NCBI GenBank assembly: GCA_016184105.1
Contig: JACPDI010000035.1
Coordinates: 1-64,000 of the forward strand
DNA length: 64,000 nt
DNA from: Acidobacteriota bacterium
Lineage (GTDB): Bacteria; Acidobacteriota; Vicinamibacteria; Vicinamibacterales; 2-12-FULL-66-21
Direction of reading: 5' to 3'
This document shows, in pieces, positions 4,131 to 32,594 of the stretch (positions within the stretch are counted from its first letter, which is position 1; each line of letters starts with the position of its first letter). The notes under the pieces were generated by a model, which saw only the letters and a list, made by a program, of their open reading frames with translations, made no database searches and had not been told where the DNA came from. Made by a program: the position numbers and the translations under genes.

Positions 4131-5165
4131 ATGAGCGGTCGAACGGTCTGGTTGGTGCCGGCGTTGCTCGCCGCATCGGCGGTCGCCAGCCTGGGTCAGT
4201 CAACGGGGAGCCGGCTCCACGTCACGATCGACGAGTGGCCGGTGCCGCAGCCGAAGTCACGCCCGCATGATCCGGCGGTGGCGCCCGACGGCGCCGCTTG
4301 GTACACGGGCCAGATGAACAACACGCTCGGACGGCTGGACCCGTCCACGGGCAACATCCAGGAATTCCCGCTGCCCACGCCGAAATCGGGCCCGCACGGG
4401 TTGGTGGCCGACACGGAGGGGAATATCTGGTACACGGGAAACTTCGCCGCGCACATCGGCAAGCTCGACCCGAAGACCGGCAGGGTCACGGAGTACAAAA
4501 TGCCGGACCCGCGCGCGAGAGATCCGCACACGCCGATCTTCGACCAGAAGGGCACGCTGTGGTTCACCGTGCAGGGGGGCAATTTCGTCGGCAAGCTCGA
4601 TCCGAAGACGGGAGCGATCACGTTGACGGAAGCGCCGACGCCCAACTCGCGCCCGTACGGGATCGTCGTGACCTCAAAGGGCGTGCCCGTTTTCGATCTG
4701 TTCAACACGAACAAAATCGGCACGATCGATCCGAAGACGATGGCGATCACGGAATACGCGTTGCCCGAGGGGGCGCGTCCGCGCCGCATCGCGGTGACTG
4801 CCGACGACACGATCTACTACACGGACTACGCGCGCGGGTATCTCGGCCGGGTGACGCTCACCCCGTGGAACGTGGAGGAGTTCAAGTCGCCCGGCGGCGA
4901 GCGGTCGCGGCCGTATGCCATTACGGCGACCTCGGACGGCGCGATCTGGTACAGCGAGTCGGGCGTCGAGCCGAACACCATCGTCCGCTTCGATCCGAAG
5001 ACCGCCACGTTCCAGACCTGGCCGATTCCCTCGGGCGGTGGCGTCGTCCGCCACATGGTGACGGCGCCGAACGGCGACCTGTGGATCGCGTGCAGCGGGG
5101 TGGACAGGATCGGGAGGGTGAGGATCAGGCACAAGGCAATAGGCACGAGGCACGAGGGTTCCTGA
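4131..5165 (+). CDS. Secreted β-propeller, virginiamycin B lyase-like
   Basis: A 344-residue exported protein made of repeated blades of about 40 residues, each with an IWYTG- or LWFT-like strand and an LDPKTG turn. This is the pattern of Vgb (streptogramin lyase) and SMP-30-type propellers. The start ATG follows a strong AGGAGGGGGG box (4118-4127). The first 22 residues look like a signal peptide, ending near SLGQ. True Vgb linearises streptogramin B antibiotics in the cytosol; a signal peptide and the common occurrence of such propellers in acidobacteria make another, unknown role more likely. The last residues (RIRHKAIGTRHEGS) and the stop are encoded by a heptad repeat. Confidence 0.75.
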   Translation: MSGRTVWLVPALLAASAVASLGQSTGSRLHVTIDEWPVPQPKSRPHDPAVAPDGAAWYTGQMNNTLGRLDPSTGNIQEFPLPTPKSGPHGLVADTEGNIWYTGNFAAHIGKLDPKTGRVTEYKMPDPRARDPHTPIFDQKGTLWFTVQGGNFVGKLDPKTGAITLTEAPTPNSRPYGIVVTSKGVPVFDLFNTNKIGTIDPKTMAITEYALPEGARPRRIAVTADDTIYYTDYARGYLGRVTLTPWNVEEFKSPGGERSRPYAITATSDGAIWYSESGVEPNTIVRFDPKTATFQTWPIPSGGGVVRHMVTAPNGDLWIACSGVDRIGRVRIRHKAIGTRHEGS

Positions 5166-5208: not shown

Positions 5209-7459
5209 CGGCCGCCCCCGGCTGCGTCCCCGCGATGAACGCTTCCTGGATGGTTCCCGGGGTGCCGGGCTCGACGGCGTCGCCGGTGGAGCGATCGATC
5301 GCCACGAAGACGATATTGCCCGGCGGCTCGAAGGAGGCGGGGGGCGTGCGGCCGTCCACGTAGCGCTTCATGAGATCGATCCAGATCGGCAGTGCCGCCT
5401 CGCTGCCGGTAAACCCGGGTCCGATCGTCTTCTTCTGGTCGTGCCCGATCCAGATGCCGACGGTGACCTCGGGATCGAAGCCGATGAACCACGCGTCGCT
5501 GTAGTCGTCGGTCGTCCCCGTCTTGCCCGCAAGGGGCCACGCGATCTCCGCGGCCTTGGCCGCCGTGCCCCTCACCACGACGCCGCGCAGCAGGTTGGTC
5601 ATGACATACGCGGTGTCTGCACGGATGGCGTCGTGCGGCTCGGGACGGTGCTCTTCGAGCACGTTGCCTTCGCGGTCCGTCACCTTGGCGATCGTGTACG
5701 GCGACATGCGGACGCCCTGGTTCGGATAGACCGAGTAGGCGCTCGTCATCTCCAGCAGCGTCGCTTCCGCCGCGCCGAGCGCCACGGCGAGGTACGGGGG
5801 GATCGGCGAGGTGAGCCCGAGGCGCCGCGCGTAGGCGATCACCTGCGGCGGGCCAAGCTCCTCCATCATCTTCACGGCCGGCACGTTTCGCGACTGCTCG
5901 AGCGCGCGCCGGAGCGTGATCGGCCCCCAGAATTCATGGTCGTAGTTCTGCGGTGAGTACGGGGGCTGGTTCGGGCCGGTCGGGAAGGCGACCGGCGCGT
6001 CGATGATCGTCGAGACCGGCGTGTATCCCCGATCGATCGCCGCGGTGTACACAAAGGGCTTGAACGCCGATCCGACCTGCCGGGCGGCCTGCGTCGCGCG
6101 GTTGAACTTGCTTCGGTCGAAACTGTAGCCCCCCACCATCGCGAGGATGCGGCCGGTGCGGTTCTCGATCGCCAGCAGCGCTCCCTCGAGCGCCGGCGGC
6201 TGTTCGAGCGAGCCTGTGAGGGAGCCGTCGGGTGCGACCTGCTGCACGCGCAGCTCGACGAGATCACCGGCCCTGCCGATCTGCGCCGGCTTCCGTCGCG
6301 TCCACGCGTAGCCGGACGGCTCGATCACCGCCGCGCGCGCGCCCACGCGCAGGCGCAGGCGCGGCCCGTCAACCCCGATGAGCAGGGCTGGCACGACGTC
6401 GCCGGCCGCGACCGGCTTGTCCCATCGCGGGTGCCGGAACGCGCTGGCGGCGTGCCCCTCGGCCACCACGTTGCGCGACGGCCGGCGCCATCCGCGGCGC
6501 TTGTCCAGCCGCCGCAGCCCCTCGGTGATCGACAGGTTCGCCGATCGCTGCAGGTCGCTGTCGAGCGTCGTCTGAACGGTGAGGCCTCCCTCGTAGAGCG
6601 GCTTCACGCCGTAGCGCGCCTCCAGTTGCTTGCGCACTTCCTCGACGAAGTACGGCGCCATCGACTGGTCCTGGGCCGGATCGCCGCGCAGCGTAATCGG
6701 CTTCGCCTTCGCGGCGGCGGCCTGCTCGGGCGTGATGTAGTGCAGGTCCGCCATCCGCTGCAGCACATACCCGCGGCGCCGCTTCGCGGCGTCCATGTTC
6801 ACGTACGGGCTCTGGCGCGAGGCCGCCTGGATGATGCCGGCAATCAGCGCCGCTTCTTCGAGGCCCAGGTCCTTCGCGGATTTCGCGAAGTAGAGCCGCG
6901 ACGCGGCCTGCACCCCGTAGGCGCCGTGCCCGAGGTGAATCTGGTTGCAGTAGAAGGTGAAGATCTCCTGCTTCGTGTACCGCTTCTCGAGCTGGATGGC
7001 GACGATCGCTTCCTTGATCTTCCGCTCCCACGTCTTCTCGAAGCCGATCGTGGCGGGGAAGAGGTTGCGTGCGAGCTGCTGCGTGATGGTGCTCGCACCG
7101 GCGGCCTTCCGCCGTTCGATGATGTCCTTGACGAGCGTCAAGGCGATGCGCGGAATGCTCAGCCCGAAGTGCTGAAAGAATTCGTCGTCCTCGGCGGCCA
7201 GGATGGCGTGGCGCAGCGTGGGCGAAATCTGCTCGTAGGTGATGACCTCGCGCCGCTGGATGGCGAAATCGCCGATGGTCCGGCCGCGCGCGTCGTACAC
7301 GCGCGTGATCGTGCTGGGGGTGTAGTCGTCCAGCGCCTCGATCGCCGGAAGGTCGCCGGAATAGGCGAAGAGAACGCCGGTGACCGTGCCCAGCCCCGCC
7401 GCGACGAAGAACAGCGCAACGATCCCGGCGCGGCGGGCGAATTTAAGGACGACGGTCAA
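5198..7459 (-). CDS. Class A penicillin-binding protein (PBP1A type)
   Basis: Bifunctional peptidoglycan synthase of 753 residues, anchored in the inner membrane by one N-terminal segment (about residues 12-32). The glycosyltransferase (GT51) domain carries EDDEFFQHFG near residue 92 and the GASTITQQLARNL motif. The transpeptidase domain has the catalytic serine in GSAFKPF, then SRN and KTGT. It polymerises lipid II glycan chains and cross-links the stem peptides. Length and motif order are normal for PBP1A. It faces the propeller gene convergently, with a heptad array between them. Upstream on the same strand is prfB. Confidence 0.95.
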   Translation of the reverse strand: MTVVLKFARRAGIVALFFVAAGLGTVTGVLFAYSGDLPAIEALDDYTPSTITRVYDARGRTIGDFAIQRREVITYEQISPTLRHAILAAEDDEFFQHFGLSIPRIALTLVKDIIERRKAAGASTITQQLARNLFPATIGFEKTWERKIKEAIVAIQLEKRYTKQEIFTFYCNQIHLGHGAYGVQAASRLYFAKSAKDLGLEEAALIAGIIQAASRQSPYVNMDAAKRRRGYVLQRMADLHYITPEQAAAAKAKPITLRGDPAQDQSMAPYFVEEVRKQLEARYGVKPLYEGGLTVQTTLDSDLQRSANLSITEGLRRLDKRRGWRRPSRNVVAEGHAASAFRHPRWDKPVAAGDVVPALLIGVDGPRLRLRVGARAAVIEPSGYAWTRRKPAQIGRAGDLVELRVQQVAPDGSLTGSLEQPPALEGALLAIENRTGRILAMVGGYSFDRSKFNRATQAARQVGSAFKPFVYTAAIDRGYTPVSTIIDAPVAFPTGPNQPPYSPQNYDHEFWGPITLRRALEQSRNVPAVKMMEELGPPQVIAYARRLGLTSPIPPYLAVALGAAEATLLEMTSAYSVYPNQGVRMSPYTIAKVTDREGNVLEEHRPEPHDAIRADTAYVMTNLLRGVVVRGTAAKAAEIAWPLAGKTGTTDDYSDAWFIGFDPEVTVGIWIGHDQKKTIGPGFTGSEAALPIWIDLMKRYVDGRTPPASFEPPGNIVFVAIDRSTGDAVEPGTPGTIQEAFIAGTQPGAAVRQ

Positions 7460-31239: not shown

Positions 31240-31248
31240 GACGCATCA

Positions 31249-31254
31249 ATTATA
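31249..31254 (-). promoter_or_regulatory. Possible -10 element of the mutase operon
   Basis: On the minus strand a perfect TATAAT (31249-31254) ends nine bases before the mutase ATG (31237-31239). No good -35 is seen 16-18 bases upstream. If used, transcription would start about two to three bases before the ATG, giving a leaderless mRNA for the long minus-strand run. Confidence 0.4.
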
Positions 31255-31260
31255 TAGAAG

Positions 31261-31583
31261 GCTTGCCGCGTCACGCGCGGAACACGCAGACTCAATTGGG
31301 CTTCCGCGCATTGCACGCGTCCTGACCCGCGCGTCCGTGCCCCGGCCGGCGACGCGAGCCGGTCGGTGGCGGTCGCCGAGCACGCGCCAGCGATTTCACA
31401 CGTTCGGCTGCCGGGAAATCGGCGAGACCACGGCGCGGCAGGAGGAGGGCGCGCGCCGGAGAGGTAGGACTGCTCGACGCCGTCGAGGTCGAGAAAGAAA
31501 GCTGCGTAGGCGGCCTGACACCTTCTCTTAAAACGTGGTACTTGAGCCGCTTAGGAACGATGTGCTATTTCGCTTTTATTGTG
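31261..31583. other. Gap without recognisable gene
   Basis: About 320 bases between the mutase promoter region and the start of the leader RNA region. It holds no convincing coding frame, tRNA or repeat. The left part is GC-rich like the chromosome; composition falls toward 31500. It may mark the junction of the lower-GC insert that follows. Confidence 0.5.
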
Positions 31584-31584
31584 C

Positions 31585-31614
31585 TTGACGCGGCAGGTAA
31601 TGGGGGCTTATATT
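31585..31614 (+). promoter_or_regulatory. Promoter-like sequence before the leader RNA
   Basis: TTGACG (31585-31590) and TATATT (31609-31614) with an 18-base spacer. If this is the promoter, transcription starts near 31621 and the RNA lacks the left arm of stem P1. An alternative with TTGAGC around 31543-31548 and TATTTC around 31567 would include it. Confidence 0.5.
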
Positions 31615-31725
31615 GAGTGGCGTTGTAGCCCATCGCTGAGGTTCTCTGTACTGAGAACTGCAATCTCGGCGGTAATATTAGCCCCAGGGGGTACGCCGTC
31701 AGGCGATACCCCCTGATGTTTTTTT
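31603..31725 (+). ncRNA. Candidate structured leader RNA or small RNA upstream of the NYN gene
   Basis: Four nested pairings can be drawn by eye. P1 is GGGGCTTATATT (31603-31614) with AATATTAGCCCC (31674-31685), 11 of 12 paired. P2 is CGCTGAG (31634-31640) with CTCGGCG (31665-31671). P3 is GTTCTC (31641-31646) with GAGAAC (31653-31658). Directly after P1 ends, a terminator hairpin begins at 31686. The RNA ends about ten bases before the ribosome-binding site of the NYN gene, so it could be an attenuator or riboswitch-like leader, or an independent small RNA of 100-120 bases. I do not recognise a known RNA family. Confidence 0.5.
31686..31725 (+). terminator. Strong intrinsic terminator before the NYN gene
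   Basis: AGGGGGTA plus CGCC (31686-31697), loop GTCA, then GGCG, a bulged A and TACCCCCT (31702-31714). This makes a 12-pair stem, followed after four bases by seven T (31719-31725). It lies between the promoter-like sequence and the NYN start, so most transcripts would end here unless read-through is allowed. Confidence 0.85.
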
Positions 31726-31747
31726 GAGGGTAAAAGAGAGGGCTGCA

Positions 31748-32428
31748 ATGCCACGAGATTCGACTTCCGCGCCTGCCGCTTCCAGCACCAATATCACAAT
31801 CACGCGAGTCCGTGTGTTTGTGGACTACTGGAACTTTCAACTCACGTTGAACGAGCGGATCGCCAAAAGCAAAAAGCTGGCAGACACTCGATTCCAAATC
31901 GAATGGCGGAAATTGGGTCCGTGGCTTGCCGCTCGTGCGTGCGAGGCGGCGGGCCTCTCCGGGCATTCGTTTGAAGGCGCACACCTGTACGTCTCGTACG
32001 ATCCCCGCAAGGAGTCGGACAAGAAGTTCTTTGGCTGGGTTAATTCGTGGTTGACGAAGCAGCCGGGATTGATCGTCGAGTGCCGAGAACGGAAACCGAA
32101 GGCGGCGCCCGACTGTCCGGAATGCCATCAAACCATTGCCGATTGTCCGCATTGCAAGAGACCAATTCGACCAAGTCAAGAAAAGGGCGTCGACACATTG
32201 ATCGCGACCGACATGATTCGCTTGGCTTGGGAGAGCGCGTACGACCTGGCCGTGCTTGCGACCTCGGACCGCGACCTGGTTCCGGCCGTGGAATTTCTGA
32301 ATACGAAGGGCCGAAAGGTCGTTCACGCCGCGTTGCCGCCGAAGGGGGCGGACCTGTCGAGCGTGTCGTGGGCGATGTTCGATGTCTTCGACCGGTACAC
32401 AGAAATCGAACGTCCGCCTGTAAAGTAG
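31748..32428 (+). CDS. NYN-domain protein with zinc-ribbon-like insert
   Basis: A 226-residue protein of the NYN/LabA-like PIN-fold group, which are metal-dependent ribonucleases. Conserved acidic positions are visible in VRVFVDYWNFQL (near residue 20), EKGVDTLIATDMIRLAWE and LAVLATSDRDLVPAVEFL. A CPECHQ...CPHCK insert (about residues 122-138) could hold zinc. ATG 31748 follows a GAGAGGG box; an earlier TTG at 31724 lies within the terminator tail. Base composition is clearly lower in GC than the neighbours (50% in 32161-32220 against 73% in 33001-33060), suggesting acquisition. It is preceded by a structured RNA and a terminator. Substrate unknown. Confidence 0.85.
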   Translation: MPRDSTSAPAASSTNITITRVRVFVDYWNFQLTLNERIAKSKKLADTRFQIEWRKLGPWLAARACEAAGLSGHSFEGAHLYVSYDPRKESDKKFFGWVNSWLTKQPGLIVECRERKPKAAPDCPECHQTIADCPHCKRPIRPSQEKGVDTLIATDMIRLAWESAYDLAVLATSDRDLVPAVEFLNTKGRKVVHAALPPKGADLSSVSWAMFDVFDRYTEIERPPVK

Positions 32429-32445
32429 CCGAACGACACGGCTCA
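32429..32445. terminator. Weak hairpin after the NYN gene
   Basis: A short AGCCG / CGGCT stem directly follows the NYN stop codon and has no T-run. It could weakly end transcription or be chance. Confidence 0.25.
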
Positions 32446-32594
32446 GCGAAAGTTGACCACTGCCGGGTGCGGCGCGCGGGTGGACAGCGGCGGTGTTTCA
32501 CGCTACGCTGGAGGGTCTTCGCGCCGCCTCATGGCACCGGTGATGCACCGTCCTCTCACCTGCGCGCGTCGCCTGTACGCGCGAGGTACCCCCA

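Follow-up and report, generated by a model that had tools for sequence, protein, structure and literature searches.

A two-unit structured RNA beside a mobile NYN-domain nuclease gene: a candidate RNA-neutralised toxin-antitoxin module

Within the window, that is, the whole stretch of 64,000 nucleotides of Acidobacteriota DNA analysed here, we identified an inserted cassette composed of a small structured RNA gene and the gene of an NYN-domain ribonuclease, and relatives of this RNA were found almost always next to nuclease genes of the same family. By sequence comparison across loci we could show the two genes, the structure and repeats of the RNA, its promoter and terminator, its association with the nuclease, the mobility of the pair and the trans arrangement of its two members. 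The pair quite probably belongs to a new class, whether of RNA-neutralised toxin-antitoxin systems or of RNA-dependent NYN nucleases, with an undescribed two-unit RNA. The more specific reading, which we favour with some reserve, is that of a two-component mobile module in which the RNA would serve as a type III-like antitoxin that holds the NYN endoribonuclease in check. NYN-domain proteins, whose fold is that of PIN-like nucleases, are common in bacteria and mostly unexplained, and a whole NYN family with a dedicated, covarying, repeat-built RNA seems to be uncatalogued.

The inserted cassette and its nuclease gene

The features of the cassette are listed in Table 1. The gap between the mutase and glutamate dehydrogenase genes that flank it measures 1355 bp in the window, versus about 250 bp in relatives without NYN; at two such loci, in relatives from the same taxonomic order (L091 and L092), the two genes are divergent, with about 250 bp and no NYN gene between them. 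The third-position GC content (GC3) of the NYN gene is 0.69, as against 0.92-0.95 in three neighbouring genes (window GC, 68.6%), and the drop in GC at 32161-32220 noted in the first-pass annotation was computed as 50.0%. Because of this low GC and the empty site in relatives, the cassette is, on compositional and comparative grounds, a recent insertion at this locus.

Table 1. Coordinates of the features of the cassette in the window
Feature	Position	Strand	Basis or detail
Intergenic span holding the inserted cassette	31240..32594	.	Flanks: mutase gene (-), glutamate dehydrogenase gene (+)
Sigma-70-type promoter of the RNA: TTGACG 31585-31590, 18-nt spacer, TATATT 31609-31614	31585..31614	+	10/12 matches
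Small structured RNA, two tandem units; predicted RNA partner/antitoxin	31621..31725	+	Covariance-model match, 71.8 bits
Unit 1 single-stranded motif CGTTGTAGCCC	31621..31631	+	7/11 positions match the linker motif in the window
Unit 1 hairpin ATCGCTGAGG...CTCGGCGGT (inner helices of the first-pass annotation)	31632..31673	+	Fold; helix 1 compensatory changes
Unit 2 single-stranded motif (linker) AATATTAGCCC	31674..31684	+	Motif comparison
Unit 2 hairpin, intrinsic terminator CAGGGGGTACGCC-GTCA-GGCGATACCCCCTG with T7	31685..31725	+	Fold; helix 2 covariation
RBS/start of NYN mRNA GGGCUGCAAUG	31740..31750	+	11/11 complementary (2 G-U) to unit 1 motif
NYN-domain ribonuclease gene, 226 aa, predicted active-site Asp 26, 149, 174	31748..32428	+	Pfam NYN

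The gene had previously been read as a ribosome-binding site followed by an NYN-domain frame with a CxxC...CxxC insert, and both readings hold: the start codon is the ATG at 31748, the protein scores 39.4 bits against the Pfam NYN cut-off of 24.2, and the insert is zinc-ribbon-like (C123, C126, C133 and C136) and invariant among relatives. The Pfam search showed NYN and no Abi_2. The AlphaFold model of the protein (pLDDT 94.6) found its best structural match in 2QIP, an uncharacterised NYN protein (Z 17.2 over 160 residues), and also matched the NYN domains of mouse (Z 14.8) and human (Z 14.4) MARF1; a ToxN structure was absent among the structural matches listed for this model, and a search of the PDB by sequence gave chance matches only. 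D26, D149 and D174 are invariant in 29 full-length NYN proteins that come with the RNA. The NYN protein of B. fragilis has D13, which was probed by mutation, together with D118 and D143, and since its D118-D143 spacing of 25 residues is the same as that of D149-D174 (PMC11346440), Asp149 is predicted to be catalytic. HEC-09 (PADLOC) is the nearest defence family (E 4e-11), with only the C-terminal part of the window protein matching (residues 129-201 of 226 against positions 87-160 of the 203 in the profile), which is not a full-length match. A second, more distant NYN-domain ORF with no RNA-model match is present in the window's own genome (L002, contig C8, 563-1471).

Architecture of the RNA

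NYN-protein relatives were fetched from 31 genome loci and the DNA in front of each was read. About twenty of these loci have the same element upstream of NYN, a sigma-70 promoter and then a short RNA with the consensus CATTGAAGCCC-hairpin-TATTnnAGCCC-CAGGGG...CCCCTG-TATTTT. The RNA is about 105 nt long and has its own promoter and its own terminator. About 27 of 32 relatives have a promoter similar to that of the window, and it stops some 5 nt short of the RNA; promoter scores in 32 loci average 9.2 of 12 versus 6.1 in shuffles, and the promoter stays with the RNA at L012 and L019. As the promoter in the window is TTGACG/TATATT, we place the 5' end of the RNA near 31621. For the outermost helix proposed earlier, P1 (31603-31614/31674-31685), an inverted repeat with a single mismatch does exist, but it is not a conserved helix and was rejected as a structural element: its 5' arm covers the -10 hexamer, so that P1 is no part of the RNA, whose conserved sequence begins past that arm, and what is conserved in front of relatives is the promoter, not P1.

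The remaining structure fared better. Positions 31621-31725 fold at -46.8 kcal/mol, and a near-identical stretch of 107 nt gave a folding z of -5.0, reached by 0 of 200 shuffles. The terminator announced by the first-pass annotation was recovered at 31684-31725, with a 13-pair stem carrying one bulge and followed by seven T, while the inner helices P2 and P3 are conserved across relatives as one hairpin, not two. General fold predictions gave nested helices only, with no pseudoknot of the kind formed by the ToxI antitoxin among them. The view that the RNA belongs to no known family agrees with Rfam 15, in which it has no match at gathering threshold; the one sub-threshold match of the window RNA was tfoR (18.2 bits versus 70 needed), and five relatives searched against Rfam gave no family match at the RNA.

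Compensating changes in front of other NYN genes had been suggested as a check on the structure, and RNAalifold on 22 RNAs, in an alignment not fitted to the model, gave 16 pairs of which 14 carry them. In the alignment of 32 RNAs to model R1, 95.4% of cells are paired and 14 of the 16 pairs are changed on both sides, with a covariation of 0.58 (0.22 shuffled); for 21 RNAs outside model building, 95.0% of cells are paired and 14 pairs compensated, with a covariation of 0.63 (0.21 shuffled), both of these alignments being fitted to the model and so leaning toward structure. Slid controls fail, as slid partners in the 32 RNAs reach at most 0.13. Compensatory changes affect 8/8 pairs of helix 1 and 6/8 pairs of helix 2, in which about 99% of cells are paired.

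Each unit consists of an 11-nt single-stranded motif (YAUUnnAGCCC) followed by a hairpin, which in the second unit is the terminator. The two motifs of one RNA have a mean identity of 7.2/11, versus 6.1 for motifs taken across loci and 3.1 with letters shuffled. This within-RNA likeness was reached in 0 of 10000 permutations, and again in 0 of 10000 in an independent set, counts that are not strict probabilities because the permutation ignores relatedness. Since the paired motifs of one RNA match better than those across loci, the RNA is a two-unit repeat with its last hairpin doubling as terminator; TATT appears again after the terminator in many RNAs.

Association, gene order and mobility

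The 44 RNA relatives are distributed over Acidobacteriota, Chloroflexota, Myxococcota, Planctomycetota, Proteobacteria, putative viral contigs and small complete plasmids, and 43 of them adjoin a nuclease gene from a single NYN family. Conversely, the RNA is present in 24 of 30 genomes with NYN relatives, nearly always as a single copy beside NYN; G020 has a second copy at a distance of 1.9 kb, on the far side of a PDC-S11 gene. In 396 Acidobacteriota genomes the RNA model gave six matches, of which five adjoin NYN and the sixth is an orphan (L077). Similar RNAs missed by the covariance model were recognised by eye at L072, L086 and L112. The NYN family is rare and scattered, with occurrences in 14/396 genomes of the window's phylum (RNA-less clade included), 6/301 Chloroflexota genomes (phylum of G011), 3/297 genomes in the phylum of G002 and 1/388 Pseudomonadota genomes (phylum of G006). 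The genome with the orphan RNA (L077, 1501-1574) shares its genus with G053, where both RNA and NYN are present. Neighbours of NYN are mostly ordinary genes, defence-island context is mostly absent, and neighbour clustering gave no third gene common to most RNA-bearing loci; single defence-like neighbours are a PDC-S11 gene (L022) and an SNF2 helicase gene (L026). At L022, two RNA copies (4812-4916 and 6669-6773) flank a frameshifted NYN gene and the PDC-S11 (candidate defence family) gene.

Three RNA-NYN arrangements were observed, in unrelated lineages: (i) upstream co-directional, with the terminator between RNA and NYN, as in the window, (ii) upstream divergent, with the RNA on the opposite strand (L103, L113 and L114), and (iii) downstream convergent, again on the opposite strand (L012 and L019). 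The loci of the last two kinds, to which a terminator between the genes is inapplicable, were found by the model and lie outside its training set. Because co-directional, divergent and convergent placements all occur, the RNA is, as judged by its position, an independent, trans-acting gene and not a leader or riboswitch.

Five small, complete plasmids of 6.3-12.4 kb carry NYN homologues; their hosts are cultured bacteria (Novacetimonas, Aeromonas, Cobetia, Pararoseomonas and Paracoccus), and the RNA lies upstream in two, is divergent in two and was recognised only by eye in one (L112). A search of viral contigs for NYN found none with a single sequence and seven with an alignment, and six of these seven putative viral contigs carry the RNA; no NYN homologue was present in the named phage genomes and E. 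coli searched. Comparison thus lends good support to the cassette as a horizontally moving two-gene module. The Cobetia plasmid record (L114, 1-8550) is apparently a head-to-tail dimer of a unit of about 4.3 kb with NYN, rep and mob genes, and on the Aeromonas plasmid (L113, 8299-8401) RNAI, the ColE1-type replication control RNA, lies directly downstream of NYN.

One clade of the nuclease has no RNA. Asp149 is kept in 30/30 NYN proteins beside the RNA and is Glu or Thr in 10/10 of the RNA-less clade (L025, L027, L028, L029, L031, L033, L024, L068, L069 and L071). On the midpoint-rooted tree this clade is nested among RNA-bearing NYN proteins, so that the RNA looks ancestral, with moderate support (90/74); the losses of RNA and of Asp149 map to one branch and may be a single evolutionary event, so that they do not replicate each other independently. 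The RNA-less NYN genes share conserved, apparently vertical neighbourhoods (by eye, a gcvP-like or a TGS/uridine-kinase-like gene), while the RNA-bearing ones share none, and the RNA-less protein is possibly a repurposed one. On adequate contigs no active-site-intact NYN of the clade studied is clearly without RNA; a distant homologue that lacks it (L109) was left out of the active-site comparison. The RNA, for its part, still matches the model where NYN is truncated (L019), frameshifted (L022 and L026), deprived of its start (L066), interrupted by an internal stop (L081) or absent (L077), the broken genes being mostly from metagenome assemblies, in which frameshifts can be errors. Read at face value, the RNA is kept without an intact NYN and not the reverse, which is the asymmetry expected of a toxin and its antitoxin.

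Possible roles of the RNA

We propose that the RNA inhibits the nuclease because the layout and trans arrangement match those of AbiF/RCd22 and, in outline, those of ToxIN and AvcID. The two-unit RNA of about 105 nt, made from a constitutive promoter, would bind the NYN (PIN-like) endoribonuclease and render it inactive, and the intergenic terminator, through which transcription would rarely pass, would keep the RNA in excess over the nuclease. Once the RNA was lost, by phage shut-off of host transcription or by plasmid loss, the stable nuclease would be freed and would cut cellular or viral RNA. What we infer is that the RNA binds the protein directly, that it inhibits and does not activate it, that the nuclease is toxic, and what the trigger is. 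An RNA partner in a toxin or defence module had been among the options of the first-pass annotation; the partnership is supported by the NYN association, the covariation and the loss of RNA with loss of Asp149, and the toxin or defence role is presumptive. The cassette may be a new module of phage defence or of plasmid maintenance. As a new class of RNA-neutralised system, it would span at least five phyla with their plasmids and viral contigs, and NYN would become the third unrelated protein group, after AbiF and AvcD, in RNA-neutralised systems of the ToxIN kind. The pair offers a compact and testable two-gene system for studying the way in which RNA control of unrelated nucleases arises, with the nested RNA-free, active-site-altered clade as a natural control.

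In C. difficile, the RCd22 RNA (about 100-130 nt, two motifs, own sigma-A promoter and terminator) neutralises AbiF in cis and in trans (PMC12373285). The likeness extends to the two-motif RNA, its own promoter, its terminator and a start site-to-ATG distance of 168 nt there (PMC12373285) and a predicted 127 nt here; AbiF, however, is an Abi_2 protein, kin to the Cas13 lineage, whereas the toxin candidate of the window is NYN/PIN. ToxIN, CptIN and TenpIN resemble the cassette in their tandem-repeat RNA, terminator, endoribonuclease gene and frequent mobility, but differ in having a ToxN/AbiQ fold instead of the NYN fold (2QIP, MARF1) and repeats of 34-50 nt (PMC12373285) instead of two imperfect single-strand-plus-hairpin units. 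AvcID likewise joins a type III RNA antitoxin to an enzyme toxin of unrelated kind, which becomes active when transcription is shut off, although this toxin is a deoxycytidylate deaminase, the RNA measures at least 171 nt and no terminator is predicted between the genes (PMC10511110). HEC-09 and the CRISPR-associated B. fragilis NYN (PMC11346440) belong to the same NYN nuclease superfamily, but the sources compared describe no such RNA partner for either, and we found no open-access paper in which a comparable RNA is paired with an NYN gene.

The main rival, which we regard as possible though rather unlikely, is a ribonucleoprotein effector in which the RNA would be a cofactor or guide that activates NYN or targets it against foreign RNA. 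Much of what was observed, association and covariation included, would be expected of such a particle as well, the conserved single-stranded motifs could serve as recognition elements, and NYN nucleases do occur with type III CRISPR (PMC11346440). However, the hairpin 1 loops drift slowly in close relatives (L079/L080/L081 and L013/L014) and are not swapped as guides would be, and RNAs that outlast a broken or absent NYN gene are odd for a mere cofactor.

Two further readings bear on the pairing of the unit 1 motif CGUUGUAGCCC (31621-31631) with the NYN start at 31740-31750, which has a dG of -17.9 (0/300 shuffles). This pairing is found in 3 of 26 loci (window, L008 and L111), and shuffled versions of the loci's own start regions gave worse scores in 100/100; own-locus complementarity is, nevertheless, no better than that to other loci (about 0.2 by permutation). 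It is striking in the window and could, on sequence grounds, be a lineage-specific extra antisense layer, but antisense control as a general NYN mechanism finds no support, being not significant across the family. We hold it improbable that the RNA is a substrate or product, that is, that NYN matures a base-pairing sRNA whose C-rich single-stranded motifs bind the ribosome-binding sites of other mRNAs and, in some lineages, that of NYN: the motifs and the complementarity at the three loci would suit it, whereas the lack of own-locus preference does not, and a housekeeping processing pair would hardly be expected to be mobile and plasmid-borne. A type I-like antisense antitoxin, which would pair with the NYN start and block translation, is allowed for by the complementarity to ribosome-binding site and start codon in the window, in a translational rather than protein-binding role, but its restriction to so few loci makes it very unlikely. 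A cis-acting attenuator or ligand-sensing leader, the other option of the first-pass annotation, is hardly credible: although the RNA terminator ends just before the NYN ribosome-binding site in the window and most relatives, and the G-rich arm of the terminator is a conceivable pairing partner for the 5' GCCC, most relatives have the RNA's own promoter and terminator, one RNA is an orphan, and the five loci with a divergent or convergent RNA on the opposite strand contradict a riboswitch or attenuator.
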